Shown: in pieces, positions 22,736 through 58,888 of the stretch
How positions within the stretch are numbered: position 1 is the first letter of the stretch
Layout: every line of letters begins with the position of its first letter
NCBI GenBank assembly: GCA_030248295.1
Contig: JASANH010001575.1
Span: 1-64,000 of the forward strand
DNA: 64,000 nucleotides
Direction: 5' to 3'
Source of the DNA: Mesodorylaimus sp. YZB2_4
Taxonomy: Eukaryota > Nematoda > Enoplea > Dorylaimida > Dorylaimidae
Made by a program: the position numbers and the translations under genes
The notes under the pieces: model-generated
What the model saw: only the letters and a program-made list of their open reading frames with translations
Databases searched by the model: none
What the model was told of the DNA's origin: nothing

Positions 22736-22837
22736 TGCTAACATGTCCGAGCAGAGATGGCCATCAGAACATGCAGCCATGGTTAGTCATCGAGCGAGTC
22801 TGCACACACCTGATCGACTGATCACCCGCCATCACCA

Positions 22838-25800
22838 TCACCTCGTCGTCTCGTCTTCTAAGTTCCCGTCTCGGCTTCGCCCACGACTGGCCCTCGGCGA
22901 CTGGCCACGTTCTTTCGGCACACGCGGGGGTTTGGTGAACAGCGAGAATTTCTTCACGCTCGACTTCACGCTCGACTTGACGCTCGACATCAGGTCCGAC
23001 TGCTCGCACGGCCACAACTTCGGCCCTCCGCCAGTCTGACGCACCACTCCGCCACCAGCTGGTCCTGGAAAGGAGACCGCGGGTCAGGGACAAGTCGAAG
23101 GGACATCGGACCAACTTACCTCCCCTCGAGCACGCGTCGAACAGCTCGCGCAGAGTCCCGAGCATCAGCCACTTCATGTTGAAGACCTTGATTTCGCCCA
23201 TCTTTTTCACCGAGAAGGCTCCCACGCGCGATTTGCCGACCTTGCGCATCATGTCGTTCAGATTCATTGCCGACCACTTGTTGTGCAGGCAGGCCTGGTA
23301 GTTGAGGATGGTCACGGCGTCCGTCGGAGCGTAGACCAGCCCGTCTCGGCACAGCAGGGCCACATTCGGGCGTTGGCGATCGGCTTGATTGGCCATGCAG
23401 TAGACGGCGTGGTCGATCTTCTTGGCGTTCTTCAGGACGTCAGTCTCCCTCGAAGGATCGGGCAGGTGCTTCATGTACAGGATGTCGACCTGGGAAGAAA
23501 CAGTCAATCCTGGGATTCTGACTTGAAAAACTCACAAATACCTCGGTTCCGCCCTGAGGGAACTCCGTGCTGAAGTCTATGGCCAGCTTGGCGATCGTGA
23601 ACCCGGATTCATTGATGCACTGCACCCATTGGCACCACACGTTGTCCTTCTTGCCGCGAATCTCGGAGGGAGGCGGATTCCCACTCTTGGGCAGCAGCAG
23701 ATGGCCACTTGGCAGAGCTCCGTTGATCACGAACGTGCCGACCTGCAAGCAATTCATGTGTTTGGTGAAGGAGCTGAAACAACATAACTTACATGATTCT
23801 TCTCGACGAAGGTGTGCAGGAAGTCGAGGATGGTTTCAGCATCGCCCTTCGGAATCGAGCCCACGAAGATCGTGCTGCCTTCGTAGTAGCCTTGCACTTC
23901 GTTGGCATTCAACCCGCCGACTTGAGTTGACATTCGCACCTTCATCACACGCCCCGAAGCCGTTTTCATCTTCACCACATCGCCGTCCTTCACGTCCACT
24001 TCGACGCCGGAGCCGATGATCTTGCGCTTCTCTTCCCGATCTTTCACCTTCTTACAACGGCCGAGCTCGTTGGTCACTTGGGCTACTGTGCAGGAGCTGC
24101 CGGGTCGATAGCACTCGTTTGCATCGTGATCGTCCTTCTGCTGCACAGCGCCGTGCGGGAACAGGAACGATGGTTGGGCCACAGGTTGGACGTAGATGAC
24201 TCGCGGACGGTCCACTTGCACACTCTTCTTGCTCGGCAGAGCCTTTTCCGGGTCTCGTTTGGCTGAAAACATTTCTTTAATTGCCAGGTTTGGCAGAAAA
24301 AGTCAGTCGCTTACCAGTCTGACGACGACGCTGCTTGACCTTGTAGATGATCACGGCGACGAGGATGGCCCCGACAACGACGATGATGATGCCGACGCCG
24401 AGGTAGATGTACTTGGTCATGTTGTCGTCGGTCGTGGTGACCATGTCCGGAATCGACGTCCCGATGCCATCTGCAAAAAAGCGTATGCAGTCTCAGCCTG
24501 GACAGCCGCTTTCCATCCTTACCCCAAGCGCCCTCCCGATCGAAGATGCCTTTGTACCCGCTCCTGATGTTGTTGCTGGGGCCGTCGCCGTTGTACTTCG
24601 TCCAACAGTCGCCGTAGAACCGTCCCGGCTCATTGGGCTTGAATGTCCGGCCCTGAAAAGGATGGGGTTACTACTCTAGTTATGGGGGCAGTACCCCTGG
24701 GCATCCTACCATGATCTTCTTGCCACTCGGGGTCGTGGTCTCGCAGATGAGGTCGCTGAACTCGTCAGGGGGATCCGACGTCGGCTTCCATTCCATCAGT
24801 TCCGCAGTCTTGCCGTCAGTGCTCGTGGTCGGCTCGGCCTTCAGCTCGCCGCCTCCTGAAGAAGCAAAGAGGATTAGTGCTGGCGGTCCGAATTCGGGGG
24901 GCACGACTTACCAGTCTGGACGAATTGAGCGTGCGTGGTGGTTGTTTCTTCGCCTTTCTTCAGCTTGCACTTGAGGATTCCGACGTTTGGCTTCTTGAAA
25001 AAGTCTTCTGGGAATGGTACTTTTTTGCCACGTTCGCATTGCCCCGCACTGATTTTGGCCGGCACTTCTTTGCCGTCGACGATCCATTCACATTCCAGCT
25101 CGGCGCCGTCGCCGGAGCTACCTTGCGGGCACTCGATCTCGGGCTGCTGATTGCTGTCGGTCACTTCGATGACGTCGTTCACCCTGACCGGTTTCCCATC
25201 GTACGAGATGTGTGGAGTTTTCCCTACAACACGAAATCCGTTTTGACACAAAATGGTTAGAAAAATTCTGACTCGCCTTTCCCAGAGCAAGATCCTGTTT
25301 CCTCGGCCCAGGCATTGTCGTAGTCGTTGTTCGCATTCGAGTGGCACAAGGACTTATCTCCTTTTGTCGCTCCGCCACAGATTTCCGTTCCCGAGGCCAT
25401 GCCGTGTTGGTTTTCGCAGGTCTTGACGTCGATCTCGCACGTCACTCCGTTCTTGGTCACGTAGCAGTACTTGCCTTCGGCGCACCCGGCGGTCTCGTTC
25501 TTGCCGCCTGAAAAAAATTTCATGATGGCCCCTCAGCAAAATTGGAGGAAATCACTCATGATCGTTCCCAGAACAGTCGGCCTAACATGATTTGCGCCCT
25601 GGCAGAGCAGACCCGTCGGCCCCGTCCTTGAAAGAATCTAGTTTTCCCACTACTCCACACCCTGCTAGCCGATGGACCACTACTTCTCAGGTCGACCGTC
25701 TCCCAGGCCCAGCCTCTGTGAGTCCCATCCCAGACAAAGCACTCTACTTACAGGTCCGGTACTCGTACTTGAATGGTTTCGACACTTGGCCGTTGTACTT

Positions 25801-26197
25801 GACGTAGTACTTGTTGAACTCGGTGTCGCTCGTCATTGCCAGATTGAACGTGGCCCGACCATCCGAGTCGCACTTTTCCGTTTGGACGACTTTGCCGTTT
25901 TCATCGACCAGATCCATGGACGTGGTGCACTTGGCCCCATCGAGCTTCGCGACGATTTTGGCGACGCCACCTTCTTCGGTCAGGCTGTTCTTGATGCCGT
26001 GCCGGTTGTAGAACGTGACAGACTTGATCTCTGAAAGAAAAGATGTCGGCTTTAAAAGGTGTTCGGGTGGAAGTCTCGCATCGAATCGCAAAATTTCTTC
26101 GATTTTTCGCGGAAAATCGAGGCCCAACTCGCGAAAACTGCGGAGACCCTCCCGGAGATTTAATTTTGGAAGAAATTTTCTTACCGGGCTTTGCCAT
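22838..26197 (-). CDS. Gene A: receptor-like protein with a degenerate (pseudo) tyrosine phosphatase domain
   Basis: Eleven exons, high to low: 26197-26185, 26030-25752, 25507-25277, 25223-24912, 24855-24710, 24652-24523, 24470-24315, 24262-23793, 23742-23536, 23489-23120 and 23064-22838 (846 codons plus stop). Extracellular part: the family N-terminal domain (residues 5-97), a Cys-rich module (GCAEGKYCYVTKNGVTC), an Ig-like domain (LECEWIVDG ... LKCKLKKGE) and a membrane-proximal part. The transmembrane helix is near residues 391-413 and is followed by KVKQRRR. The intracellular part aligns with tyrosine phosphatases (LNANEVQGYYEGSTIFVG, DFLHTFVEKNH, then LPDP for the WPD loop). The signature loop reads LLCRDGLVYAP: Cys kept, catalytic Arg replaced by Tyr, so no phosphatase activity is expected. 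Intron 3 has a GC donor. The model starts MAKP with no signal peptide. The role is unknown, perhaps substrate binding or signalling scaffold. Confidence 0.85.
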
Positions 26198-26199
26198 CG

Positions 26200-27490
26200 C
26201 CACGATCAGATGCTTGTTTGACTTTTCTTTCGGTTCGACTTGGTTTTGCTTCGATTCGCACGATGCTTGCGCGGTTTTCGCTTCAACGCGACGAGAGATT
26301 TCCGGTATCGACCGCTCAGGACGAATTCACAGAACAGAATGAGCGAGCAGGCAGAAACTATCCACTCTGCACCTCCGACTTTACGTTGCGCGACTTTACA
26401 CTGCGGGGGCACTGCATAGTGTAAATTTCAAAGATCACAGGCTTAACGAGTTTGAATTTGGATTGATGTGTATTCGCTCCAATTTTTTTGTTCGTCCACG
26501 ATTTTTGATTCCTTGCGAGAAATATCGCAGCAATCGATTGCATAGCGACAGTCCAAAAAAGGAAATGAGTTGAGGGCCTCTCGAGGTCGAAAAATACGTT
26601 GCCCCAATCCATTTCACACTTTCTTTCAGTTGCCTACGACAGCCAAAACTCCAAAGTTTTGGCGTCAAGACAGGGAAACCCTGCCAATGACTCATCTTCA
26701 TGAATTTTCGTGCAGCATTTAGCGAATGCCGAGGCCAAACAAGCAAAACACCCGAGCGCGGGTCTTGCCCTAATTGGGGCCAGGAGAAATCCCTTGTGAC
26801 CGGCATGACCGCGCCGTGCCCGTACTGGCACGCTGGTGGCTGATAGGCTAGTCGCAGCGAGGGAGCGTCGAAGTTCGTCCGTGGGGACTGACTGAGCTGC
26901 CATCAATGCAAGTCCTGATGGCAGTGTGAGCTGCACTCGGTGTGCGGCTGGGGCTAGTCTCTGCAGGTTCGAATACACTGCGCAGTCCCGATAGCTGGTC
27001 ACTAGTCATGTACACAGTTCAATATGCCGACTCGAGGACACCTCGACGATTCAAATAGGAGAGGCCGCTGAGGGTCAGAGGAGCCTGTTTGGCCGCACTA
27101 GTCGATGTTTACGGGCAGAATGAAGGACTTACGAGAACCTACCTCAGAGAGGGTGGGCGGGCATGTCTAGAAGTGGTCAGGTGACAAGTAGTTTTGGCCG
27201 AATCTGGCCCCGTGTCAGAGAGGGTTGTACACGAGGAAGTTCATCGGCTATGCGTCGAGGATAGGAGGACCACGTGCACGGAGAGGTTGCACTCCTCCCA
27301 CCGCCGAATCGAGCGTGACCCAGCGCGTCCTTGAACCAAACTAACGCAGTTCGGGTCACAGAAAACGAAAGCACTGCCTCAATTTCTGAGCGATCCCAGG
27401 GACTGGCCACAACAGATCACATCAGACGGACTCCTGGAACAAAGGAAGACCTTCGTTCTGAAGAATGAATCAGATTCGAGCAGAGAGGCT
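26200..27490. other. Upstream region of gene A within the duplication
   Basis: This stretch is duplicated upstream of gene B (54260-55550). The part nearest gene A also resembles the upstream part of pseudogene D, which suggests a conserved 5' UTR or promoter. A short frame with a hydrophobic run (SACSLILFCEFVLSG, about 26320-26365 on the minus strand) is present but does not join gene A by a good splice site. Confidence 0.4.
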
Positions 27491-27494
27491 GGCT

Positions 27495-28439
27495 TAGCGT
27501 ATACAGCGTTAACGACAACGATATCATGCCGTTAACGACATCTTTTCAAGGTCATTAACGAAACGATAACGATAAGGATATTTTTTCAAATAACGGTAGC
27601 GATAACGATATTTGTCCAAAAAACCATATGATATCGTTAATTATCCCTCTGCGTTCTGTACTGTATTTCCACTAGAAGCACCTCCACGCGAGGCCATTCT
27701 GGACTGGACACTGACTTCCTCGGACGATGGCGGGTGGGCGTTGAACCGATGTTCGACAGCTGCGACTGTCTACTCGTTTTGCTTCCGTCTCTCCACTCGG
27801 AGCACCTCTGGGCTACCGGATGGACCGCCCACGGCCTAGCGTGCAAGGTCAGCGTGAGTTTATTGTTCGCAAGCCGATATCCATCATTGGGGATCGAACC
27901 TGGGACGAGCCTAGCCTCTTGCTGCCAAGAATATGAAAAGACGGATGCCGAACCACCCACACGGCCGCGTTGTTGCTAGATAAATGGTGGACAATGATGC
28001 TAGGTGATAGGCCATTAGGGCAAATAGCCATAGCCAGCAAGCCAGATTCTATAAATGGGGGTCCTGGCCGCGATGTGGTCTACGAAACAGGACATAGTTT
28101 GGGCGGCTGCAATCTGAACAGGGGAGCATTATCTGGACAAGGCGGGGGCTGACCAAGTGGCACCAACGAAGGTGGTTCCCCCCAAATGGGGACAGTTGAC
28201 ACTGACAGACCTCCTTGGAGGCGGCCAGTCCACTGTTTCTCTCCAGTGCTTATTGTCAGAGTCCAGAGGAACTCGACAGTACTCCCGCCAGTCTCCCAGC
28301 TCACTAAGCGGCAACATTGCGTCTTTTTCGCGAAAAAATAACGCTATTTAACGAGTTAACGATTGACGATGAGGATATTTTTTGGGATATCGTTAACGAA
28401 CGATAACGACATCGTTTTCCTGTAACGATATATACGTTA
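27495..28439. mobile_element. hAT-like non-autonomous DNA transposon with nested SINE, arm A copy
   Basis: The left end is TAGCGTATACAGCGTTAACG; the right end reads TAACGTATATATCGTTACAG on the minus strand. The element is flanked by GGCTGGCT on both sides (27487-27494 and 28440-28447). An 8-bp target duplication and termini fitting YARNG are typical of hAT elements. The subterminal DNA is packed with GTTAACGATATC-like words. The middle carries a tRNA-like sequence on the minus strand with B box GGTTCGATCC (complement of 27891-27900), probably a nested SINE. No transposase frame. Confidence 0.8.
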
Positions 28440-28639
28440 GGCTGGCTTGACATGACTTGCCGAGCCCCTTTTCGAGGACACTCCCACCTGCGCCCCACCA
28501 GTGCGACTCTGTCAGCGCGTCGAACCCTGGGCACATCAAACAACGCGCATGAAACTCGATGCGTATACCTCAGGAATAAATGCTCATGCGCAGTGGGCGC
28601 AAACACTGCTCGGTGCTCCCCCTTCTCTTCTCAAAAAGC

Positions 28640-30860: not shown

Positions 30861-30862
30861 GG

Positions 30863-33913: not shown

Positions 33914-34114
33914 AATAGGCATGTACTATGCCCTCTGGCCTATTCGTGCACTGGTTCAGGGAACCGGTCCGTCTCTCCTAACCACCCTAGTCTCCCGACC
34001 AATCATTCGACCTTGAACTCGCTCTCGCTCTTGTGCTGGCCCTGACTTAGGAGAGGCGGACCAGTTCCCTGAACCTGTGCACCAATAGGCCAGAGGGCAT
34101 AGTACATGCCTATT
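33914..34114. repeat. Foldback inverted repeat with 68-bp arms
   Basis: The bases 33914-33981 are complementary to 34047-34114 with only a few mismatches, leaving a spacer of about 65 nt. The arm starts AATAGGCATGTACTATGCCC. The outermost CATGCCTATT is repeated once more beyond the right arm (about 34115-34125). It lies just downstream of the last recognisable exon of pseudogene D and looks like a foldback-type MITE. Confidence 0.8.
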
Positions 34115-36556
34115 CCATGCCTATTACACACTCAAACTAAAAACATACCTCCGGTCGCGAGGGCCTCGCACAGATCGCGGAGAGTCAGGGTGGCCAAGTG
34201 GATCATGCGGAATACCATCTTCGCGCCCAGCTAAGTCTTCGAGAAGGCCCCCATGCGCGCCCTGTTCACTGTCTTCGTCACGTCTTTCAGATTGATGGCC
34301 TCCCAGTTGGTCTTCATGCCGGCCTCGTAGTTGATGATGGCCAGGGCGTCCGTCGGAGCGTACACCAGTCCGTCCGGGCACACCAGAACCGTATTTGGCA
34401 AGCTGCTTTCGGTCTGCTTGCACATGTAGTAGACGGCCTGTTCGATCTTGGAAGCGTTCTTCCTCACATCATTCGCGTTCTTCGGGTCGGGCAAGATCGG
34501 CAAGTGGATCACGCGGATCTGGACCTGCAAAGGAGCCGTCGATCCTCTGAATGGCAGAGAACCACGAAATGACTCACCGAATCGGTCGCAGTGGCGCCGT
34601 CACCCGGGTCGCGCACAGTCAGCGTGCCAGCCGGAACCCCGTCCTTTTCGTCGAGCAACAACCACTTCAGGGTCAGATGGTCTTCGGGTGTGCCCACTGT
34701 GATTGGTCCCGAGTTTTCATCCTTCGGAATCAGCGGATGGTTCTTCGGCAGCGCGCCAGTGATCACGATCACGCCGACCTGAAACCAAAAAATAAGCCTG
34801 ACTAAATATCTCGGTATACAAGAGACCTCACCTGCTTGTCCAGGAGCTCCTTGAGCCACTTCAACAAATCGGCGACGGATGGAATCGAGCCCATGAACAG
34901 CTGACTGGCCTTGTAGAAGCTGAACATTTGGTTCATGTCCAACCCGCCGACTTGAGTTGATTTTCGGACTTGGACGGGCTGCTTCCCGGCCATCTTCACT
35001 TCGACCACATCGCCCTTCTCCACGATCTCTTCGTTGACGCCCTTAATCAGAGCCTCCATCTCGGACTCAGTTTTCGCAGCCCAGCAATCTTGGAGTAGTT
35101 TCAATAATTTGTCCAGCGTGTAGTTGTCGATGGCCCCGAAGTAGTGGTTAGGAGCCATGCTCACTTTGTCGTCGCTTCGCTTTCCAGCCATCGGATCGAG
35201 GAACCTTTCTTTCGCGGGTGACGGCTTCGGTTTGACGCTGCTGTTGCCCTGCGATTCGATCGCCCGCGTCGCAATCTTTCCCTTTGGCACGATCTTCGGC
35301 GTCCAACTGGCTGTCTTAACCCCCGCTTTGTCCGATTCACATTTCGCTGAAAAAACTCTTTGAAATTTTCAATTGATTTAATTTAAAGCATATGCTTACA
35401 CACACCGCACTGGCCACTACGCCGACTACGACGTCGACTGCCACGCCGACGACGGCACTCTCTCCAAATGACCACGATGCCAACAATGAGGATAAACAAG
35501 AGAAGACAGCTGGTGCCGCCAGCCCACATGCCTATTTCCTCTTCCGTCATTTGTCGGGGTCCCGGTTTGCGGGTCGACCCTGGCAACCCGGCGCCTGAAA
35601 TCAAGGTATCTGTACTCTGAGTCTGCGTGATCGATCGCAAGTCTTACCGCCCTTCGACATGTGCCTGCCAAAGTAGGGGATCTCGATGTCCCTCCTCCGA
35701 CCACTGCCTTCGTACGTGCACACGCACTGGCCATCGTACACTGGCCACTGCCTTCGTACGTGCACACGCACTGGCCATGGCCATTGTACTGTCCTGGTTC
35801 CTCGGGTTTGATTCTTTCCCCCCTGAAAAAGACTTTGTGCAAGGCGATGCCAGTCCCCCTGGGGCCTCCTCCTCCTACCGTCAGCTTCTTTCCGCTCGGG
35901 GTCGTCGTTTCGCATTTACAATCACGGATTTCAGGAGGGGGCTTCGGGATCTTCTCCCACTTGACCTGATTCTCAGTCTTGCCGTCCGTGCTCGGGGTCA
36001 CCTTGGGCTCCAGCTTGCCGCCTCCTGAAGAAGCAGAGGATTAGTGGTGGTTTCCAGAGTTCAGGCAACACTTACCAGTATGGACGAAATGAGCGAGCGT
36101 GCGGGCCTTTTTGCTGCCTTTGGTGAATTTGCACTCGACTGTGCCGACGCAGGGTTGTTCGAATAACTGTTTCGGGAGAGGTACTTTTTTGGCACCTTCG
36201 CATTTTCCCGCACTGATCTCCGCCGACACTTCTTTGTTGTTGACGAGCCATTTACAGCTCAGGTGGGCGTCGTCGCCGGGGCCACCTTGCGGACAATTGG
36301 CCACGGGATGCTGAGTGCTGTTGGTGACCTTGACTGCCTCGTTGAACCTGACCAATTCTCCATCGTACGTCATGTGTGGAGTTTCCCCTGAAACACAAAT
36401 CTGTTTGCTCGAAGATGGCCAATAAAGTTCTGACATACCTGTCTGAGAGCAGGCTCCCGTTTCCTCGGCCAAGGCTTTGTCGTGGTTGTTGGTCGCGATC
36501 GATTCGCACTGGGAATCAGCTTTCGTACCTTCCCCGCAAATGGAGGTTGCCTTGCC

Positions 36557-37512
36557 GGGTGTAGGCCAGTTGAGCCGTTCCTGATTGCGCCGTTTCTAGT
36601 AGCGCTGACCTATTTGCGCTGTTTTGGTTTGCGCCATGTCCTAATTTCGCCGACCCCGAATTGCGCTTCTTTCTGTTGCGCCGCTTTTTGATTGAGCCGG
36701 GTCATAGAGTGGTATAGCAGTTTGTGGTAGTTGCCTGTGTTTACTCGCACATCATCTAACCTTGTAATAATCCTGATGAAAGTAAAGCTTTCGGCCGGTT
36801 ATGATCAGGTCTCTACTAGACGCGATGCTAAAAAAGCTGCATTTCTGCAACGGAATTTTTGATAGGTTCTTGAGCAAGCCATCAAAATTTGAGCTAATAA
36901 TTCGTGATCAGTGCTCATACCCACAGTATGAGCACTGATCACGAATCTTTGCGGCCCAGAGCCAGCATTGACCGATCCGGCCGGAGCGATCCGAGGGGTT
37001 GATCGGTTCCCGATCCGAGATGACCGCTGGATCGGCCGGATAGGCAACTGAAATTTTACGCTCTGTATCTGCCGAAGAATGATAAGGTGTGGCATACTAT
37101 GATGAGAAAATCCCGTTTTTCTCTCAAAATAGCATTCAGTCCCACTTAAGGCTCTGCTGCTTTCTCCTCCCTGCGTCGTTTAGAGTGGACTGACAGAGTG
37201 ACAGCGAGGAAACAGCAGGTTGGTGAGGACGCAGTGCCAAGTACTGGTGCGTCATCCCCATCAATCTAAATTCTTTTGGAGCGGATTGGCCGAATCGGAT
37301 CGGAATCCAGACCTAGGGTTGGATCGTTCGATGCCGGGCCCAGAGAGGTTTCAATCCAACCTGAGAAATTAGCGCAATTAGTGACAAGCGCAACTCAAAG
37401 CGGTGCAATTATGAATTGGCGCAACACAAAACGGCGCAATCAGGAAACGGCGCTAGTGAAACGGCGCAATCCGAACGGCGCAACTCGTAAGCGCCGCAAC
37501 TGGGTATTTCCC
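36557..37512. mobile_element. DNA transposon (MITE) inserted in exon 3 of pseudogene D
   Basis: It is flanked by GCCTTGCC on both sides (36549-36556 and 37513-37520), an 8-bp target duplication. The ends are imperfect inverted repeats: GGGTGTAGGCCAGTTGAGCC on the left and GGGAAATACCCAGTTGCGG on the complement of the right. Both are followed by repeated TTGCGCCGTTT words. No transposase frame. Inside lies a perfect 21-bp hairpin, 36900-36946. The superfamily is not certain; an 8-bp duplication fits hAT or similar. Confidence 0.8.
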
Positions 37513-37835
37513 GCCTTGCCGTGCTGGTTGGCGCATGAGTCGGCGTCGATTTTGCACGCTGGACCGTCCTTGGTCACAAAACATTGCGTGCCGTCTGGGC
37601 AACCAGCGGACTCGCCCTCACCGCCTGAAAATTTTCGATAAAGGGATTGACTACAAAATTGAAGATTCGAAGGAATGCAAGCGAGTCCCACCCTTGGGAT
37701 CAATGACTCTTTGACTAAGGCCCTGAGAAGCGAGCTCCCAGTCCGTGTTTACTTCGGAAAGAGGATTGGGGACTCGCTCGTTCGGACATCATGTCTGCTC
37801 CCCCTTTTTAGGCTCAACCTTTGTGAGTCCCATGC

Positions 37836-38195
37836 CAGGGTCGACCATACCAGAGGGTGGTTCAGTGTGGGTACGGCGCTGACAGTACGCCGATACAGCC
37901 GTTCCGACTTTTGTATGATTTGTGTGATAATTTGGCGTTAAAGTACACTTTTTGCTTCATAGGGGTCATATTGAAATTCACAGTCAGAAAGTCGACGGTC
38001 TGTACCGAAAAAATTTTTTCGGTATGGAACGTATTACTTATTGCACTTTCGTTACGGAATTTTTTCGATAAAGTTTTTTATAAATTCGAGAAAGATATAA
38101 AATTTTTAAATCTGCCAGGATGGAAATTTGTTTCGAACGTGCCCGGTCCGTACCGCCTCAGGTACGGGCAAACAGTCGGTTCGGTCGACCCTGGG
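37836..38195. mobile_element. 360-bp MITE in intron 2 of pseudogene D
   Basis: The ends CAGGGTCGACC (left) and GGTCGACCCTGGG (right) are inverted. The flanks TCCCATGC (37828-37835) and CCCCATCC (38196-38203) are diverged copies of TCCCATCC, which stands once at the same place in intron 2 of gene A (about 25726-25733) and of gene B. Genes A and B therefore show the empty site. Confidence 0.75.
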
Positions 38196-38699
38196 CCCCA
38201 TCCCAGACAAAGCAGTGTACTTACACGTTCGATACCCATATTTGAATGGCTCGGCGGATCGTTGGCCTTTGAACTCGGCGAAGTAATTGCCAAACTTGGT
38301 GTCCTTTGTCATCGGCACTTTGAACTTGACCTGTCCATTCTAATCGCATTTTCCCGTTTGAAACACATTCCCATTTTCATCGACAAAATTCATGGACTCG
38401 ATGCACTTGGCCTGATCGAGCCTCGCCTTGATTTCCACGTGGCCACCGCTTTCGGCTGGACTGATCTCGATGCCATGCTGGTTGAAGAATTTTACCCCGA
38501 TTCGATCACTAAAACGAAAGCAACCGTTCCGGAAGTGCGCCTGGATGGAAAATCTTTAGTAAAATCGCGAAATCTGCTCGATCTTCCGGGAAAATCGAGG
38601 CTGAGCTTGCAAAAACTCGGTGGCCCTTTTCCTACAGTACATTTCGAAAGAAGTTCTCTTACCTGGCGCCGCCATCGCCCAATCAGACACTTTTCGACT

Positions 38700-39240: not shown

Positions 39241-39248
39241 TACTTTCC

Positions 39249-42200: not shown

Positions 42201-45200
42201 CACGCGAACTTGACGCTGGGCGAACTGTAGAACGTAACGTACTTCCTATACGCCCCCAGGCCTGCATTGAACGGCGCCATGAATGGCGAGGCGTCATGAC
42301 TGCCAGCGAACCAGAATCGTCGTCCACGGCTGGTCCTCTTATGACCCCCGTTCGCTTCGCTCGTCACCGCCCCGTCCACAATTTCGGGCACCAGACTCAG
42401 GTTGGTCGTTCGCGGCGTCGACGGCACAGCTTTGGCGATGGACACGATCGAACCTCGCAGATCACGCGGCGATGATCGATATCCATCCTCGTCTTCGAAA
42501 CGTACCAGAAACAAGACTGGCAGCACTGTGAATGTGGAAAAAGCGATCGTCCACCCGTTCGCCTCGAACCCTCGCGTCCACGTCTTCCAGATGGCGAACT
42601 GACACGGCTCAGACGAGAGAAAGACCTGAAATGCAACAGGTGCCTTGGCCAGAATCCATAGACAGACCTCATAAAATGCTCGGCCCACCCATCGCCTGAG
42701 TTCTACTACCCTCGGGCGGGACTCGAACCCACTCGTACAAGTCGACATGTGACAACATTGTGTAGTCCAAATAGTACCCTCAATAGCGAGGGTTCGATTC
42801 CCGCTCACACCCAATGTTTCCCCACGCCTAGCTCGCGTTTTACCTGATCCTTCGCCATAGCGGCCAATTCCATGCAAGTAAAATTCCCCCACTTTTTCCA
42901 TCGTCGATGTAAAAGTAACATGGTTTGTTCCCTGCTCGCCTCGTACGCCTTCACAGCCAAACTAATCGATGAAGTTTCCAATTTGCTATAAAAGGGAGTC
43001 GTTATTCGATGACAAAATCTGAAATTTTTTAGAACTCACTCTTTCAAAGACAATTGTTGATCGCGCAATGTTCCCGTCAGACCACGAGCGTGGGTGGCCA
43101 AAAATTCGCAGATCAAAGTGCCGACCAAGCAAGTAGCCAATGGTTGCTCGCACTGCTCCCAAAAACGGATTGCCAACACATCGCTGAAAGTAGAATGAAT
43201 TGAGGCATCTGAAACCTAGCCCCTCGGGGGGAGGGGGGGGGGCGTGTGATGCCGAGTCGGGCCTTCAAACGCGCAATGAAAGGGATTTCGGGCAAGCCTT
43301 CCCCTGCCAAACTTCCCTCCTGACTGTCATAAGGTTATTGCACCTGGGCATCACTGCGCGCGGCAAATTCAAATATTTCACTATCAACGCCATATCCCCC
43401 GACGTGCACACGCCTATCCTACTTTGCAGCCTCGGCGCCTGGTAGGCCAAGGCGGGTGGGAGAGAGTATCGATCTCCCCTGGCTGGGACATCAACCCGTC
43501 GAGTTGATGTTTCGACCGCAAGAATTGCCGTGCTTCACTCTGACTTCGGACGGCCACACTCCCTCCTTCGCCTGCCAGGCTAGGTCACAACTTCCCGCCC
43601 ACCTGGCCTCACTTGTTCAACAACACGGCCCAAACAAACAGCTCGTCGAACGGATCTTCGAAAGTCTTTGCCATCGTTTCGTCGTCTTCTTTCCCATAAA
43701 ACGGGTGATCGAATCCTCGCGCCGCCTCCTTGATAACCTTGCACAGATCCGATAACGACAACGGGTGCTGCTTGACACGTCCATAATCCAAATGGAGCAG
43801 ACGATGCAGCAAAGTCTGAGGTTGCACCTAAACAAACAAACACAGTATTTACTTTGAGAACACATATCTAAAACTATATTTTACCAATCGTGCAAATTTC
43901 CATTATGTGTTGTCTCTTTTTATTGACTGCACTCTTTTACCTATTCCACACACCCTACTTTATCATGTTCCTGTCAACAAACGCTTTAATACCACATTCT
44001 TGCAGCAAATGCGTAAAATATGGTTTCAGATAGGAGTTACCCCTGGGCACTTCCGATTGGTCAGTTCGCCTTAGGGTACACCCACGCTCACTTCCTCCTA
44101 CTCACCGTGGATTGATACAAATTGGTCAAATCTCGCACAGTCAACGAATTCTTCACATCCAATCCGTATTCGATAAAAAGTCGCACAAATTCCGGTTTAT
44201 TAGTGTACAAAGCTTCCATGAAAAACGGCCACAAATCTAACGATGTATCGGACGGAAGAGAATCGCCAAAAATTTTCGCCTTAGCCACGTCAATTCGATT
44301 CCATTTCAAGGCTAAACTCAACTGACTGCTTCGTTCAGTTTGTTGGGTCCGATCCATCAGACTGGCCAGGATGGCTGTGTCCAAGGCCGAACCACGTTTT
44401 GCATTGAAAATTGTCACCTGAAGATCGAAAAAAATGCCATCAGATTTTATGCCAACTTCCTACACTAAAGCTGGGCGATAAGAACTTTGACAAAAGTAAA
44501 CCTATCTGTAACCATATTTTACCCAAGTAGCACCTATAGCAGTTTTGGTTCGCAGAAAGGCAATTTTCATTCAAGGTAATACATGATTGGACCTAGTTTA
44601 TATGTATATACCACAGAAAATTGAAAGCGCACACTCCTTAATGCGTGAGTAAAATATGGTTTCAGTCAGACGATCATCATTCAGAGGATCCCCTTTCTGA
44701 AACCACATTTATCCAAGTAGCACTAGAGGTACTTTTGGTTCGCTAGGCAATTTTCAAGATATCACATCAATGGATCTACGTAGTTTCGATGTGGATACCA
44801 CAAGAATTAGAAGCGCACACTCCTTAACGCGCGAGTAAAATATGGTTTCAGATTCCTCAACTGTAAATCTGTTTGTCCGATTAAGAAAATTACGGCTCTC
44901 CTATTCATGCTTCGTCCGACAGCCCCCGCCAGGTTGATGTTTCTGCCATAATCTAGGTGGGGAGACTTGCACAAAAGGTCCAATGGTCAGTCCCCCCAGA
45001 AAGGTCAGCACGTGCCATTTTTCGTTTCTCACAGATGACCATAATGTCCTCGACGCATCGATCGTATCGCTCATCGGCATCGATTGGCAAGTGATCAGCG
45101 TACAAACTCGTGATCACACGTTCACGCAGCGAATACTTGAATGCGGCCAGCTTCGACGCACGTTCCGTCTCGTCCTTTGTCTTGCTAAAATTACAAGACA

Positions 45201-48200
45201 ATCGATAAGACCTCGCTCCAACACACTGAGACTTGTTTGCTCATTACGACACATGTGTGGTGTGACGAAGTTGTGAGTCGTCCTTTGTTTGACGAGTTTG
45301 AATGTGGCCCGAATTTGCTGTCTGTGTCTCAGGTTTGTCTGCTTGCGAGCACGAAAGTGTGGCGTGGTAGCCAGAGCTGCAGAGTTGAGGAGAGGCCGCT
45401 CTCTTTGAATCTCTCGTTTGGCTGCGAGGTCGGGTGTTTGTGCCTGTCGTCAGCAGTGTAAGTAAAGCTGGGCGTCTCGTGTTGTGTGGTAGGTTGGCTC
45501 CAGGATCGCTAAGAATCTGGCCTAGTTGCAGTTCTCATACCCTAGCTGGGAGATAGGAGCCTGGTATACCAGCTAGCATAAGGCAGCATCGTCACCGTGG
45601 GCATCGGAGGGGGCAGCAAGACACAGGGGAGGCTTCACTTAGTCAACAATCGGATGCATGTTGTCAAGCGGCTTCCTATATGCCGTCCTACAGTAAGGGT
45701 GCCTGAACCTTCCCCTCACCATAGTAAGATATACTTGCCATAATCTGCCGTAGAGTCGACACACTTGAGCCAGCAGATCCGCGGCGCGCCCCGTCCCTTC
45801 GCACACCAAAACTGGCACGCCCTCGGACACGCTTCTGGCAACAATCTCAAGTGCATTCGCCGCGCCATCGATCAGGATTTGAACGACTGGAATGCCCAGG
45901 CCGCCGTCTATAACGAAAGTTAAGTGCAGCTTAAGAAAAACCTGTCCATAATGAGCCCAGCTTTATCATGGGGACACGTGAAACCGGCCCCAGCAGCAGG
46001 AGCACACCTGCTCCTGCTGCTGGGGTTTCACAACTGTGATTGCAAAAATGACCCCTGGTTCAATTTTTTTGTATACTAACACTCCGCCTGTGGTGTATAG
46101 TGTGTTATACTATCTTTCCTAGACAGACCCATTCCCACATGAACGCCACAAGTCAGACCCCACCACCAAACCCCTTCACTTACCGTCCACGGGCAAGGCG
46201 ATTTGCCGTTCAAGTTTCGCTCTGAATTCGGCCACTCCTCGTTCCCGATTCCTCAATCCATCATCGACCAACAAGAAATGCGTGTGATAAGGATTCAGGG
46301 GTAACCGCTTCTTGAACCTGAATTGCATACTGGCCGCCAGCACAGGGTATCTCGCGTTGTTTGTTCTCTGAAATCCAAACACTGTGCCTCCGCCATCTCT
46401 CGACAGCATGCATTTGCTCAGGCGACGACCCCCTCCCCCTGACATAGCTAGTCTTACTCGTACAGCAGGCTGGAACAGTCCCGCGAGGTTGAAACATCAA
46501 CTCAACGGGTTTCTGTCCGACCTGTTAAAGGTGCGTAGCGTGCGGGCCACTCGCAATGCAGTATAACCCCAGGTCACTGTGATAAAGTGATGACTAACAC
46601 ACTAGGTAGACATCATTGATCGGGCACAGGCGTTGTCCCAAACCTGTTGAGGGGGGTGTTTCATCGTTACATGGGGAGTTGCACACATCTGGCAGATTTT
46701 TGGGCCGAATCAACCTGCTTTATCCAACGATTGGATTGCAGTAAGGTTCAACTCAAGGATACAACAGTCACTCACCTCGGCATCGGCATTCACTAATCGC
46801 TGGCCACCATAGACGGCTCCCCACGGTGCGATCCCGATACAGCAAATCTTATTCTTAAATTTGCCTTCTTCATCTCGCCAAACGAAACTTTGTGCTTCAC
46901 GCATCGAATCACCAACAGCATGCGCGACACCCACGTCCAGACCAGACGTAAGAAGCCAACCATTCGTCGTCGCCACGGCCTAGAATACATACAAACGATA
47001 AGCTACAGTAGCAAACCCTGTCTGAAACCATATTTTACACTACACTACACTACACTACACGCATCCAGGTTGCACTTCTGACTGGATTTGTCTCCCAGAT
47101 GCGGCTCTCACGCCCTCGCGCCAAAGGTGACGGGCTGATCAGGCTGAGATTGGCTAACCGTGGCCATCATGGCTTCTACCCCTTGTTTTCTGGCCACATG
47201 GCCTCGTCCCCCTGTTTCGACCGGCGATCATGACCCCCTTCCTCACAGGTCCAGTCAGGCCCTGAACTCTGGTAAGGGAATGGCGTGGTGTGAAAACCAC
47301 TTTCAGTTTCACTTTGGCAAAGGGGCGAGTTTCGATAGAAATCTCTACTGAACGATGACACACGCACACACACACACACTCCGCACACCCCAATCGCCAT
47401 GCACAGCCCGCACTCACCCTCATCAACTCTCGATTGAACAGCTTCTTTTGCACATTATCGGCCAACTTGAACATTCGCCCACCGCCCACCACCGAAATGA
47501 TCAGCTGAGGTCTCTCGATGCCATCGTTCTCCTCCAAAACAGGCCAATATCGAGTCAATAATTCCAATGTCAATTCGGGCTTCGAATCATCGCTCAGTCG
47601 AACATACTGCAATCGAGGACATGCATCACTCAGCCATGTACAGACACTGCATGAATCACCCTCGTGCTCTGGGAGGACGCATAGTCGAACGAAGTGAATC
47701 GTACACGTCCGTAAGCGTTGGTCGGGAATTTGTGGATGCACTTGTCCGAGTCCCACTGCGACGATCCGACTGGCAGTTTGTCCTAGAATGACCCATCCAT
47801 TGTGTAAGCAGTCTCCCTGATCGGACTTCCTCTGTTTCAGCCTGGTTGCAGCGGCAGGCAGTGCCGGGCACGCCAACCAGTCAAGTTGATGTTTCACTTG
47901 TTTTGACTGCTCTCCTGATTATTACACGGAGTGACCTTCCACCCGCGCTTTCCTGCCTATCAACGGTCAATCTCACAGGTCAGGGAGACACTACGATGAG
48001 GGATCATCCCGACCGATCCTTCCAGTTTCCCTGTCCATAGTTTGTCCAGGCCTAGATGACTAGCCTGTGATGCCTCGCCCCACACACAGTATCGCTGGCA
48101 CACAAGGCGTTGTGACGACCCTGTAAGGGTTCATCCCACGCACACGCATGGCACTGTGACGTCTCGCGCAATGAACCATCCCGTCATCCATCACCCCTCC

Positions 48201-49340: not shown

Positions 49341-49498
49341 TCCTGAAAACATGTCCTCACACTCGAGCACACAACAGACCCCACACTGGCCCATCCGATC
49401 AGGTCACAGGACAGGGTATACGACCAGAGATCACGACCACGAGCGACAATCAGACATGGTTTATTCAATGGTATGTATAGCAAGCACAAAATCGATTC

Positions 49499-51836: not shown

Positions 51837-51839
51837 TTT

Positions 51840-53110
51840 TCATTCGGCAAAGTTTCTCTTCTAAAAATGGAAGAATGCATCGAGGCTTGTCACAAAAAGA
51901 TGTCATGCATTGGCTGCTCCGACATCAAAACTTTGTTGGAATAGTGTGAAAAACTAGATTGTTTGCCTTTCATCGTTGAACAATTCTCGCCAGTTTACTA
52001 TAGCCGAGCAATGGACCAATGGACGGGTGACGGTTTTGGAGCCAATAGCAGACAACGCGAAACTAGTTTGCAGTACGGATAATCCTTGAAGCGGAAAATT
52101 TGAATTGGACGATAAGAATAAAACATAAAAAAACAGGTCGTGCCTTCGATAAATTACAAGGTTGAATCGCGTATGTTCTCGAGACCAGTCTCTGGTGTAC
52201 TGATGTTTAACAATTGGCCAGTCACGTGATCTTGGCGGTCGTAGAGTGCATAAATCGATGGTGTATGTTGGCTTGCAATGTGTCGATTGTCCTTCTTTTC
52301 GCGGGATAGGTGGTTTGTTAGTTGACCCTATCTTGCCATAGATTAAGGTCCATCCGGGATGCATGATGGGCAACAGCGCCCAGCCGTGTCCCGGATTTTA
52401 GAGTCCCACCCCATTGGGCCTCTCTTCGTTTATCGATCGCACAGGGATGAAAGGTGAGTCCCCCAACGCCAGACTGTGAGGCGTGAAGACAGAACGTGAC
52501 GTCTAGGGCGGACCCCAATGAAACTGGTTTCAGCTCTGCCAAGCACACTTTGACATACGCCTTTCATCGCTACCACTGAGGCGACCAGATAGCACACTCA
52601 CAAATGCCCGCTGTGGCGGGTGTTTTGATACCCCTCCCGTCTTGGAATCCTCATTACGAAATCACCAAGAGGGATCGTCATCAAGAGCTGCGGGCTACAT
52701 CGCTGACTTTGACTTTTTCTGCTCCATCGACAGTGAAACTGCTGGTCGCCACCGTGGGCATCTGGAGACAGGATACATTTGACCAGTGGCCTGGCCAGTG
52801 TATCATTGCACAGTGCAGTTGCAGGCACCCAGGGAGGCGCAGCATACTCGTACGCGCCTGAGGTGCTTGCTTGGGAACGGGGTCTTGGTGAAATCCTTGG
52901 CTGGCCCTTGGCCAAACTAGGGCTGACCAGAGGATGGCTCAAGCCACAAGAACAATTCCACGCAGTCGCAGACACCTCGTGTTATAGTTTACAGTACTGT
53001 CACCACACCTCGATGGCCGCGTAGAGTCACAATTCGGAGAGAGACATTCTCAAACCTGCGAATCAAGTGTGCGTGGGGCCAATTTTCTGTTGGGGCCAAT
53101 TTGCCGCCTT
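51840..53110. other. Intergenic between OTUD6 and duplication arm B
   Basis: No exon or shared repeat recognised. The first part should hold the OTUD6 promoter. Confidence 0.4.
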
Positions 53111-53307
53111 ACTTTTGAGAAGAGAAGGGGGAGCACCGAGCAGTGTTTGCGCCCACTGCGCATGAGCATTTATTCCTGAGGTACGCATCGAGTTTCATGC
53201 GCGTTGTTTGATGTGCCCAGGGTTCGACGCGCTGACAGAGTCGCACTGGCGGGGCGCAGGTGGGAGTGTCCTCGAAAAGGGGCTCTGCAAGTCATGTCAA
53301 GCCAGCC

Positions 53308-54255
53308 TAACGTATATATCGTTACAGGGAAACGATATCCTTATCATTCGTTAACGATATCCCGAAAAATATCCTCATCGTCAATCGTTAACTCGTTAAA
53401 TAGCGTTATTTTTTCGCGAAAAAGACGCAATGTTGCCGCTTAGTGAGCTGGGAGACTGGCGGGAGTACTGTCGAGTTCCTCTGGACTCTGACAATAAGCA
53501 CTGGAGAGAAACAGTCGACTGGCCGCCTCCAAGGAGGTCTGTCAGTCAACTGTCCCCATTTGGGGGGAACCACCCTCGTTGGTGCCACTTGGTCAGCCCC
53601 CGCCTTGTCCAGATGATGCTCCCCTGTCCAGATTGCAGCCGCCCAAACTATGTCCTGCTTCGTAGACCACATCGCGGCCAGGACCCCCATTTAAAGAATC
53701 TGGCTTGCTGGCTATGGCTATTTGCCCTAATGGCCTATCACCTAGCATCATTGTCCACCATTTATCTACAGTAGCAACAACGCGGCCGTGTAGGCGGTTC
53801 GGCATCCGTCTTTCCATATTCTTGGCAGCGGGAGGCTGGGCTCGTCCCAGGTTCGATCCCCAATGATGGATATCGGCTTGCGAACAATAAACTCACGCTG
53901 ACCTTGCACGCTAGGCCGTGGGCGGTCCATCCGGTAGCCCAGAGGTGCTCCGAGTGGAGAGACGGAAGCAAAACGAGTAGAAAGTCGCAGCTGTCGAACA
54001 TCGGTTCAACGCCCATTCGCCATCGTCCGAGGAAGTCAGTGTCCAGTCCAGAATGGCCTCGCGTGGAGGTGCTTCTAGTGGAAATACAGTACAGAACGCA
54101 GAGGGATAATTAACGATATCATATCGTTTTTTGGACGAATATCGTTATCGCTACCGTTATTTGAAAAAATATCGTTATCGTTATCGTTTCGTTAACGACC
54201 TTGAAAAGATGTCGTTAACGGCATGATATCGTTGTCGTTAACGCTATATACGCTA
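53308..54255. mobile_element. hAT-like non-autonomous DNA transposon with nested SINE, arm B copy
   Basis: The target duplication AGCCAGCC (53300-53307 and 54256-54263) and ends TAACGTATA and TATACGCTA mirror the arm A copy. The nested tRNA-like part lies on the plus strand: A-box-like TGTAGGCGGTTCGG at about 53789 and B box GGTTCGATCC at 53850-53859. Confidence 0.8.
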
Positions 54256-54263
54256 AGCCAGCC

Positions 54264-55550
54264 TCTCTGCTCGAATCTGATTCATTCTTCAGAACGAAGC
54301 TCTTCCTTTGTTCCAGGAGTCCGTCTGATGTGATCTGTTGTGGCCAGTCCCTAGGATCGCTCAGAAATTGAGGCAGTGCTTTCGTTTTCTGTGACCCGAA
54401 CTGCGTTAGTCTGGTTCAAGCACTCGTTGGGTCACGCTCGATTCGGCGGTGGGAGGAGTGCAACCTCTCCGTGCACGTGGTCCTCCTATCCTCGACGCAT
54501 AGCCGATGAACTTCCTCGTGTACAACCCTCTCTGGAACGGGGCCAGATTCGGCCAAAACTACTTGTCACCTGACCACTTCTAGGCATGCCCGCCCACCCT
54601 CTCTGAGGTAGGTTCTGGTAAGTCCTTCATTCTGCCCGTAAACATCGACTAGTGCGGCCAAACAGGCTCCTCTGACCCTCAGCGGCCTCTCCTATTTGAA
54701 TCGTCGAGGTGTCCTCGAGTCGGCATATTGAACTGTGTACATGACTAGTGACCAGCTATCGGGACTGCGCAGTGTATTCGAACCTGCAGAGACCAGCCCC
54801 AGCCGCACACCGAGTGCAGCTCACACTGCCATCAGGACTCGCATTGATGGCAGCTCAGTCAGTCCCCACGGACGAACTTCGACGCTCCCTCGCTGCGACT
54901 AGCCTATCAGCCACCAGCGTGCCAGTACGGGCACGGCGCGGTCATGCCGGTCACAAGGGATTTCTCCTGGCCCCTACTGGGCAAGACTCGCGCTCGGGTG
55001 TTTTGCTTTTTTGGCCTCTGCATTCGCTAAATGTTGCACGAAAATTCATGAAGATGAGTCATTGGCAGGGTTTCCCTGTCTTGACGCCGAAACGTTGGAG
55101 TTTTGGCTGTCGTGGGCAACTGAAAGAAAGTGTGAAATGGACTGGGGCAACGTATTTTTCGACCTCGAGACGCCCTCAACTCGTTTCCTTTTTTGGACTG
55201 TCGCTATGCAATCGATTGCTGCGATATTTCTCGCAAGGAATCAAAAATCGTGGGCGAACAAAAAAATTGGAGCGAATACACGTCAATCCAAATTCAAACT
55301 CGATAAGCCTGTGATCTTTAAAATTTACACTATGCAGTGCCCCCGCAGTGTAAAGTGGGGCAACGTAAAGTCGAAGGTGCAGAGTGGACAGTTTCTGCCT
55401 GCTCGCTCATTCTGTTCTGTGAATTCGTCCTGAGCGGTCGATACCGGAAATCTCTCGTCGCGTTGAAGCGAAAACTGCGCAAGCATCGTGCGAATCGAAG
55501 CAAAACCAAGTCGAACTGAAAGAAAAGTCAAACAAGCATCTGATCGTGGC
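54264..55550. other. Upstream region of gene B within the duplication
   Basis: Counterpart of 26200-27490. No separate gene was recognised; the portion next to the start codon is probably 5' UTR or promoter, since it is also conserved upstream of pseudogene D. Confidence 0.4.
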
Positions 55551-55551
55551 G

Positions 55552-58500
55552 ATGGCAAAGCCCGGTAAGAAAATTTCATTTAACATTAACTCCCGGAAAG
55601 GGTTTTCGCAGTTTTCGCAAGTTGGGCCTCGATTTTCCACGGAAAATCGAACAAATTTTGCGATTCGATGCGAGACTTCCACCCGAACACCTTTTAAAGC
55701 CGACATCTTTTCTTTCAGAGATCAAGTCTGTCACGTTCTACAACCGGCACGGCATCAAGAACAGCCTGACCGAAGAAGGTGGCGTCGCCAAAATCGTCGC
55801 GAAGCTCGATGGGGCCAAGTGCACCACGTCCATGGATCTGGTCGATGAAAACGGCAAAGTCGTCCAAACGGAAAAGTGCGACTCGGATGGTCGGGCCACG
55901 TTCAATCTGGCAATGACGAGCGACACCGAGTTCAACAAGTACTACGTCAAGTACAACGGCCAAGTGTCGAAACCATTCAAGTACGAGTACCGGACCTGTA
56001 AGTAGAGTGCTTTGTCTGGGATGGGACTCACAGAGGCTGGGCCTGGGAGACCGTCGACCTGAGAGGTAGTGGTCCATCGGCTAGCAGGGTGTGGAGTAGT
56101 GGGAAAACTAGATTCTTTCAAGGACGGGGCCGACGGGTCTGCTCTGCCAGGGCGCAAATCATGTTAGGCCGACTGTCCTGGGAACGATCATGAGTGATTT
56201 CCTCCAATTTTGCTGAGGGGCCATCATGAAATTTTTTTCAGGCGGCAAGAACGAGACCGCCGGGTGCGCCGAAGGCAAGTACTGCTACGTGACCAAGAAC
56301 GGGGTGACGTGCGAGATCGACGTCAAGACCTGCGACAACCAACACGGCATGGCCCCGAAGACGAAAATCTGCGGTGGAACGTCGGAATCCGACTCCGTGT
56401 GCCACTCGAACGCGAAAGACGACTACGGCAACGCCTGGGCCGAGCAAACGGGATCCTGCTCTGGAAAAGGTGAGTCAGAGTTGTATTCACCACCTTTGTT
56501 TAAAAACGGATTTTGTGTTTCAGGAAAGACTCCCCACATCTCGTACGATGGGAAACCGGTCAGGGTGAACGACGTCATCGAAGTGACCGACAGCAATCAG
56601 CAGCCCGAGATCGAGTGCCCGCAAGGTAGCTCCGGCGACGACGCCGAGCTGGAATGTGAATGGATCGTCGACGGCAAAGAAGTGCCGGCCAAAATCAGTG
56701 CGGAGAAATGCAACAAAGGCCTGAAAGCACCATTCCCAGAAGACTTTTTCAAGAAGCCAAACGTCGGAATCCTCAAGTGCAAGCTGAAGAAAGGCGAAGA
56801 AACAACCACCACGCACGCTCAATTCGTCCAGACTGGTAAGTCGTGCCCCCCGAATTCGGACAGCCAGCACTAATCCCCTTTGCTTCTTCAGGAGGCGGCG
56901 AGCTGAAGGCCGAGGCGACCGCGAGCACTGACGGCAAGACTGCGGAACTGATGGAATGGAAGCCGACGTCGGATCCCCCTGACGAGTTCAGCGACCTCAT
57001 CTGCGAGACCACGACCCCGAGTGGCAAGAAGATCATGGTAAGTTGCCCAGGGGTACTGTCCCCATAACTAGAGTAGTAACCCCATCCTTTTCAGGGCCGG
57101 ACATTCAAGCCCAATGAGCCGGGACGGTTCCACGGCGACTGTTGGACGAAGTACAACGGCGACGGCCCCAACAACAACATCAGGAGCGGGTACAAAGGCA
57201 TCTTCGATCGGGAGGGCGCTTGGGGTAAGGATGGAAAGCGGCTGTCCAGGCTGAGACTGCATTCGCTTTTTTGCAGATGGCATCGGGACGTCGATTCCGG
57301 ACATGGTCACCACGACCGACGACAACATGACCAAGTACATCTACCTCGGCGTCGGCATTATCATCGTCGTTGTCGGGGCCATCCTCGTCGCCGTGATCAT
57401 CTACAAGGTCAAGCAGCGTCGTCGTCAGACTGGTAAGCGACTGACTTTTTCTGCCAAACCTGGCAATTAAAGAAATGTTTTCAGCCAAACGAGACCCGGA
57501 AAAGGCTCTGCCGAGCAAGAAGAGTGTGCAAGTGGACCGCCCGCGAGTCATCTACGTCCAACCTGTCGCCCAACCATCGGTCCCGTTCCCGCACGGCGCT
57601 GTGCAGCAGAAGGAAGATCACAATTCGAACGAGTTCCATCGACCCGGCAGCTCCTGCACAGTAGCCCAAGTGACCAACGAGCTCGGCCGTTGCAAGAAGG
57701 TGAAAGATCGGGAAGAGATGCGCAAGATCATCGGCTCCGGCGTCGAAGTGGACGTGAAGGACGGCGATGTGGTGAAGATGAAAACGGCTTCGGGGCGTGT
57801 GATGAAGGTGCGAATGTCAACTCAAGTCGGCGGGTTGAATGCCAACGAAGTGCAAGGCTACTACGAAGGCAGCACGATCTTCGTGGGCTCGATTCCGAAG
57901 GGCGATGCTGAAACCATCCTCGACTTCCTGCACACCCTCGTCGAGAAGAATCATGTAAGTTATGTTGTTTCAGCTCCTTCACCAAACACATGAATTGCTT
58001 GCAGGTCGGCACGTTCGTGATCAACGGAGCTCTGCCAAGTGGCCATCTGCTGCTGCCCAAGAGTGGGAATCCGCCTCCCTTCGAGATTCGCGGCAAGAAG
58101 GACAACGTGTGGTGCCAATGGGTGCAGTGCATCAATGAATCCGGGTTCACGATCGCCAAGCTGGCCATGGACTTCAGCACGGAGTTCCCTCAGGGCGGAA
58201 CCGAGGTATTTGTGAGTTTTTCAAGTCAGAATCCCAGGATTGACTGTTTCTTTCCAGGTCGACATTCTGTACATGAAGCACCTGCCCGATCCTTCGAGGG
58301 AGACTGACGTCCTGAAGAACGCCAAGAAGATCGACCACGCCGTCTACTGCATGGCCAATCAAGCCGATCGCCAACGCCCGAATGTGGCCCTGCTGTGCCG
58401 AGACGGGCTGGTCTACGCTCCGACGGACGCCGTGACCATCCTCAACTACCAGGCCTGCCTGCACAACAAGTGGTCGGCAATGAATCTGAACGACATGATG

Positions 58501-58888
58501 GACAAGGTCGGCAAATCGCGCGTGGGAGCCTTCTCGGTGAAAAAGATGGGCGAAATCAAGGTCTTCAACATGAAGTGGCTGATGCTCGGGACTCTGCGCG
58601 AGCTGTTCGACGCGTGCTCGAGGGGAGGTAAGTTGGTCCGATGCCCCTTTGACTGGTCCCTGACCCGCGGTCTCCTTACCAGGACCAGCTGGTGGCGGAG
58701 TGGTGCGTCAGACTGGCGGAGGGCCGAAGTTGTGGCCGTGCGAGCAGTCGGACCTGATGTCGAGCGTCAAGTCGAGCGTGAAGTCGAGCGTGAAGAAATT
58801 CTCGCTGTTCACCAAACCCCCGCGTGTGCCGAAAGAACGTGGCCAGTCGCCGAGGGCCAGTCGTGGGCGAAGCCGAGACGGGAACTGA
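55552..58888 (+). CDS. Gene B: receptor-like protein with a degenerate (pseudo) tyrosine phosphatase domain
   Basis: Eleven exons: 55552-55564, 55719-55997, 56242-56469, 56524-56835, 56892-57037, 57095-57224, 57277-57432, 57485-57954, 58005-58211, 58258-58627 and 58683-58888 (838 codons plus stop). Same design as gene A: N-terminal domain identical over exon 2, Cys-rich module, Ig-like domain (residues 174-277), transmembrane helix 390-412 and a phosphatase-like region of about 500-770. LPD (656-658) stands where WPD should be. In the signature loop Cys694 is followed six residues on by Tyr700 instead of Arg. The basic tail (SSVKSSVKSSVKKFSLF) has a three-fold SSVK repeat. Differences from A: a normal GT donor in intron 3, an exon 3 three nt shorter, clustered replacements in exons 3-4, and an earlier stop (TGA where A has TTA). 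No signal peptide in this model. Confidence 0.87.

Follow-up and report, generated by a model that had tools for sequence, protein, structure and literature searches.

The window analysed here, the first 64 kb of contig C160 in a genome of 145 Mb and 1067 contigs, holds three related loci, genes A and B and pseudogene D. They belong to one clade of probable pseudophosphatases, in which a domain that appears to derive from protein tyrosine phosphatases (PTPs) has lost essential catalytic residues. Loci named C plus a number are designated by their contig in the genome, and L plus a number denotes a numbered locus. Gene B (55552-58888, + strand) has 11 coding exons, an open frame of 838 amino acids and GT-AG borders at every intron. 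Exon 1 (55552-55564) encodes MAKP and a split codon, without a signal peptide. Exon 2 (55719-55997) was modelled as an immunoglobulin (Ig)-like or macroglobulin-like beta-sandwich (predicted local distance difference test, pLDDT, 85.7); Foldseek returned weak fold matches (E >=0.08) with macroglobulin and LAIR1 domains on top, so that on the model the module is Ig-like at most. The exon 2 profile gave 14 matches in the PDB up to E 10, and a relationship to bacterial adhesins, raised by the best of these (8.8e-5 over 34 columns), was rejected as reflecting a generic beta-sandwich. Exon 3 (56242-56469) encodes a module with eight conserved Cys, its second half sharply diverged from that of gene A, and exon 4 (56524-56835) a second conserved-Cys module, for which the label Ig-like was given by eye only. 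When B is aligned with three relatives, 12 Cys columns of the ectodomain show no variation, and exon 3 contributes eight of these. Exons 5 (56892-57037) and 6 (57095-57224) are followed by exon 7 (57277-57432), which carries the single hydrophobic segment of B and thus its predicted transmembrane (TM) segment (residues 393-411, mean Kyte-Doolittle hydropathy 3.27), then the basic stretch KVKQRRR. Exons 8 (57485-57954), 9 (58005-58211) and 10 (58258-58627) encode the PTP-like domain, which lacks the phosphotyrosine (pTyr) loop, has LPD for WPD and C-R-D-G-L-V-Y for C-x5-R; its P-loop, CRDGLVYAPT (58396-58425), has Tyr at the Arg position. Exon 11 (58683-58888) completes the gene.

Gene A (22838-26197, - strand) is an inverted near-copy of B, with 11 exons free of stops (26197-26185, 26030-25752, 25507-25277, 25223-24912, 24855-24710, 24652-24523, 24470-24315, 24262-23793, 23742-23536, 23489-23120 and 23064-22838) and its stop codon at 22838. 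Its intron 3 (25276-25224) must be read as GC-AG to keep the frame open, whereas the equivalent intron of B is GT-AG. The two genes lie on the arms of an inverted duplication, A in arm 1 (22165-28636, -) and B in arm 2 (53113-59583, +), each about 6.5 kb long; complementarity over the eight matched blocks is 93-100%, in most cases 97-98%, and the arms are separated by a 24.5-kb spacer that contains a TRPM channel gene (44091-47918, -). Pseudogene D (34087-38675, ends approximate, -) represents a second lineage of the clade, with the motif VCPDGLVYAP, in-frame TAG stops at 38342-38340 and 34233-34231, and an insert in exon 3 (36578-37446, outer ends approximate) of about 0.9 kb with inverted-repeat ends of GCGCAA type, probably a small DNA transposon. 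A preliminary description of these loci had spoken of three paralogues; three loci are indeed present, but with A and B as arms of one duplication they amount to two lineages. The motifs it quoted are all in frame: LNANEVQG at 57835 (+) and 23912 (-), CRDGLVY at 58396 (+) and 23351 (-), CPDGLVY in D at 34380 (-), and DFLHT and VEKN in both A and B.

The identification of the intracellular domain as PTP-derived comes from family profiles and a structure model, as the sequence of B alone has no match: searched singly, B gave nothing against PF00102 at E 10, and its intracellular part found no PTP in the PDB, the sole match being a beta-lactamase-like protein at E 0.11. Protein database searches with B, the C22 gene described below and a 4-row alignment returned nothing useful, although with about 8,000 candidates scored in each this is weak evidence of absence. 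A profile that includes the relatives matched the PTP family at E=1.3e-20 in the PF00102 test; ten column-shuffled versions of the alignment scored E 0.16-0.97 and two reversed ones 0.27 and 0.53, so the match is not a chance one. A model of half the domain (exon 10 of B) has a PTP fold, and the top 50 matches per search were all PTP-superfamily phosphatases. Of the checks suggested in the preliminary description, the PF00102 search gave no match for B alone and the structure prediction gave a PTP fold for the half-domain; its assignment of a PTP origin is supported at the level of the family.

Searching the genome with the exons of B yielded 51 ectodomain and 29 C-terminal matches, which chain at 3.5 kb into 42 clusters on 21 contigs, a rough locus count in which a cluster may contain several genes or a long-intron gene may be split. 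The family is therefore not the small local one that had been proposed, and relatives elsewhere retain catalytic residues. PF00102 gave at least 159 exon-level matches (150 of 231 candidates scored), some weak ones among them having B-type ectodomain exons at a distance of about 2 kb (twice on C22, and on C112 and C859). The C22 gene has 12 exons, all bounded by GT-AG, and encodes a signal peptide, a TM segment and a PTP domain matching PF00102 at 3.5e-22; by hydropathy only, both it and B have one TM segment between the N-terminal modules and the PTP domain. With C22 as guide, nine more loci (L043-L049, L059 and L060) align over most of their length, of which L043, L047, L059 and L060 show a stop or frameshift in the guided models. 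The B-type ectodomain is present in L059 and L060 and weak in L053. Other PTP genes of the genome, L040 and L041, have an odd P-loop, HCGSGTTRSG.

For comparison of catalytic residues we assembled 14 catalytic-like rows, five found by the ectodomain search (L042, L044, L046, L048 and L049), one by a search with B exon 10 (L037) and eight picked by PF00102 match (L053-L056 and L058-L061); all 14 match PF00102 at E<=1, by construction for the eight. Excluded from the counts were C160_161k (P-loop region shifted), L010 and L013 (deletion), L019 (decayed, Cys lost), L025 (a near-copy of L026) and the partial L029 and L032. In the joint alignment, HC-x5-RS is found in 14/14 catalytic-like rows, as are the W and D of the WPD loop (WPD itself in 10/14), and the RY of the pTyr loop (KNRY-like) in 11 of 12, two further rows not covering this stretch. 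In the clade, the P-loop Arg is present in none of 14 rows; Tyr replaces it in 13, and the decayed L021 has Cys at that position. The nucleophile Cys is kept in 13/14 rows and the pTyr-loop RY in 0/14. LPD occurs in eight rows, including A and B, and is lost in the other six; the L023- and L028-type rows have lost the Asp of this loop. The replacement of Arg by Tyr noted earlier for three loci is thus a property of the clade.

The clade received support of 100/100 in a tree of the intracellular domain (28 rows). In an exon 10 tree built without the P-loop columns (31 rows), it received 99/98 and was present in 200/200 bootstrap trees. Three PTPs (L038, L040 and L041) served as outgroup for the latter, L039 being left out as its motif was not found in one frame; the outgroup branch reached only 78/72, and four catalytic-like groups have no resolved order. 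The simplest reading of the sequences is that one Arg-to-Tyr change, together with Ala-to-Asp, preceded the split of the A/B-, D-, L023- and L028-type lineages, and the single ancestral loss put forward earlier fits both trees.

The N-terminus also sets the clade apart. At the first-exon site, 10 of the 14 clade loci compared there (B, A, D, C205_123k, C160_85k, C160_161k, L002, L034, L033+L035 and L036) start with MA[KTA][PS] in a 4-residue MA.P exon, whose donor in C160_161k is GTTAG; the ATG is lost in four broken or truncated copies (C563, C205_11k, L010 and L013). None of the 14 has a signal peptide there. In C22 a signal-peptide exon occupies the same site, followed by an intron of nearly equal length (154 and 155 nt). 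Signal-peptide exons were found in 6/12 scanned catalytic-like loci; because the upstream scan missed the other six, absence by scan is weak, and the conserved MA.P exon is the stronger evidence. Within 5 kb upstream of B there is no hydrophobic phase-1 exon. Three such frames precede A and were rejected as signal peptides, none being common to B; a frame about 2.1 kb upstream of D was rejected since the stretch overlies the TRPM gene, and one at C160_161k since it is arginine-rich. The clade retains the TM segment and the ectodomain cysteines, and the sequences are compatible both with a signal-anchor (N-out) topology and with a cytosolic N-terminus. The term receptor-like is borne out by the predicted TM segment between the N-terminal modules and the PTP domain but is uncertain with regard to the signal peptide.

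From sequence and models, we hold with moderate confidence that A, B and D belong to a single clade of receptor-like PTP relatives that have one TM segment, are probably dead and would have a scaffold or decoy role. They most likely descend from a secreted-type receptor PTP with a signal peptide, an Ig-like module, an 8-Cys module, a second Cys module, a TM segment and a PTP domain, a type that likely active paralogues would still represent. In one lineage the P-loop Arg would have become Tyr, an Asp would have been gained in the P-loop, the pTyr loop lost and a short MA.P start exon acquired, after which the clade would have spread via duplication and exchange between copies. Its products may be anchored in the membrane and function non-catalytically; by analogy with PTPRU they would most likely be scaffolds or decoys having partners in common with active paralogues, and not phosphotyrosine traps. 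Several points weigh against this scheme. At E 10, 0/10 clade exons match PF00102, a clade-only profile found 0 chains in the PDB, and the half-domain model, which covers exon 10 only, gave Foldseek E values that were all >=0.089. Both trees drew long-branch warnings. The eight catalytic-like rows picked by PF00102 are no independent sample of residues; the six others (L042, L044, L046, L048, L049 and L037) are fairer, and they keep the P-loop, WPD and pTyr residues, except for WSD in L037. No B-type ectodomain was seen in L054-L056. In most catalytic-like relatives (L042-L060) the canonical Gln of the Q-loop cannot be recognised; all of these receptors may therefore be unusual or slow phosphatases, and the relatives are termed active on the strength of their residues. 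Lacking a signal peptide, the long N-terminal part with its many Cys might never be exported. Stops, frameshifts or deletions mark C563, C160_161k, L010, L013, L019, L020, L021 and D, and part of the clade, with its relaxed rates, may simply be decaying.

The main rival carries this last point further: the clade would be mostly non-functional, a set of birth-and-death relics, with A and B as young duplicates of a dying lineage. Besides the eight damaged copies, the absent signal peptide and the lost catalytic residues, it can draw on the ratio of nonsynonymous to synonymous substitution rates (omega) in exon 10, which is 0.38-0.88 for clade pairs (12/14 pairs defined) versus 0.10-0.42 for catalytic-like ones (7 pairs); these are point estimates without a significance test, from a set that left out the broken C563, C160_161k, L019, L020 and L021. 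On the other hand, exon 10 is open in 13/14 clade members of the omega set (D has a stop) despite a lineage synonymous divergence (dS) of up to 1.1. Ten clade rows share 16 invariant columns, including V18, N21, A22 and K24 in helix 3 and D49 and Y53 in the loop, and the reading frames of A and B run uninterrupted for about 840 codons, their splice sites retained. We regard decay as a possible but doubtful account of the clade as a whole. The earlier suggestion that the domain was kept for another job nonetheless has only moderate support, since the dN/dS comparison proposed with it, run here on exon 10, suggests relaxed constraint, and decay is under way in several copies.

The exon 3 of the clade is a patchwork. 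A and B differ at 65 of 2514 coding sites, and 25 of these fall within 114 sites of the second half of exon 3 (within 25277-25507 and 56242-56469), P about 3e-17. Here dS is 0.66 and the nonsynonymous divergence (dN) 0.18, and since dS is raised as well as dN, transfer of a block explains the pattern better than selection on single sites. The block of A is 92% like L002, whereas that of B is 81-85% like the compared copies of its own lineage. In C160_161k, of the D lineage, exon 3 agrees with the sister copy C160_85k at 96% in its first half and at 77% in its second; the second half reaches 82-83% with five A/B-lineage copies (C563, C205_11k, L002, L010 and L013) and 77-78% with B and A, the boundary between halves being an arbitrary column. 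Such exchange invites a more elaborate and rather unlikely scheme, a paired-receptor-like system in which active phosphatases and decoys without Arg or signal peptide would share a common Cys-rich ectodomain, gene conversion between lineages would reshuffle exon 3 and diversify specificity for ligand or partner, and the dead copies would titrate signalling. The same data make it very improbable that A and B are a single locus assembled twice in inverted form, as two inverted 6.5-kb arms with most blocks at 97-98% might suggest: the differences are clustered, and the exon 3 block of A is closer to other paralogues than that of B, which is hardly expected of an assembly echo.

Returning to the favoured scaffold or decoy role, a pTyr trap that binds phosphorylated partners without hydrolysing them, as the preliminary description imagined, is equally improbable. 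The retained P-loop Cys and Gly speak for it, but Tyr replaces the phosphate-holding Arg, the loop contains an Asp, and the pTyr loop is absent in 14/14 clade rows; such a site would be expected neither to hydrolyse phosphotyrosine nor to bind it. Least credible is an unusual yet active Cys-based enzyme using residues other than Arg, for although the nucleophile Cys (13/14 rows) and the LPD Asp (8/14) persist, Arg and the pTyr loop were lost together and the WPD-loop Asp is gone in L023- and L028-type rows.

Receptor pseudophosphatases are a known kind, and the nematode clade with Arg-to-Tyr and this ectodomain is apparently undescribed: a literature search, outside which most subscription papers lay, found no published description combining the replacement, the ectodomain and the missing signal peptide, and the ectodomain family had no informative match in the Pfam, PDB or protein database searches made. 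Human PTPRU, of the R2B group, combines a signal peptide with tandem domains, and the nematode clade has one domain. In IA-2, of the R8 group, the P-loop alanine is Asp and the Arg is kept, unlike in the nematode clade, while STYX-type proteins use a dead PTP-superfamily domain as a binding module and have the Cys replaced and the Arg kept, the reverse of the clade. EGG-3, EGG-4 and EGG-5 are not known to have a Cys-rich ectodomain and TM segment. As described in PMC7320164, PTPRU resembles the clade in being a receptor-type protein with a dead PTP domain among active paralogues, with altered pTyr loop, WPD and P-loop and the Cys kept, but by residue numbers (C1085, R1091) it retains the P-loop Arg that is Tyr in the clade. 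It is reported to vie with active paralogues for substrates and to have lost the pTyr pocket (PMC7320164, PMC7959691), and six of 37 human classical PTPs are listed as pseudophosphatases (PMC7959691). The IA-2-type receptors PTPRN and PTPRN2 (IA-2 and IA-2beta) are likewise classed as receptor-type pseudophosphatases with an altered P-loop alanine (PMC2638020). Among nematodes, EGG-3, EGG-4 and EGG-5 of C. elegans are described as PTP-like proteins without key catalytic residues, of which the near-identical EGG-4/5 pair sequesters the kinase MBK-2 at the cortex (PMC5603424).

What this genome adds is a whole pseudophosphatase branch in which Arg-to-Tyr, pTyr-loop loss and the missing signal peptide come together, beside relatives with catalytic residues and the same ectodomain. 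With copies of a single receptor enzyme that probably still work beside others that are probably dead, it offers a natural series in which to examine what selection continues to maintain in a phosphatase once its catalysis has gone. As 0/10 clade exons match Pfam, such domains can escape it, and nematode pseudophosphatases may be undercounted.

Cuticle collagen N-termini, TTR-52 and DB modules and TTTCAG-type acceptors are typical of nematodes. The nematode identity of the host follows from genome-wide Pfam searches, with 133 matches to the cuticle collagen N-terminus, 27 to TTR-52 and 19 to the DB module. Despite the plentiful cuticle collagens, no spliced leader 1 (SL1) pattern occurs in the genome with up to two mismatches allowed, and Rfam and tRNA scans of the 64-kb window gave no match. 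In the TRPM gene between the duplication arms, 44091-44459 is a TRPM2-like exon, and the SLOG-in-TRPM (LSDAT) family is matched at 45639-45962 and 47157-47918; a Kelch-repeat gene was recognised by domain match at 60195-61489 (-). At 40843-41449 lie four copies of a 124-nt repeat, arranged as two pairs with a 40-nt offset.

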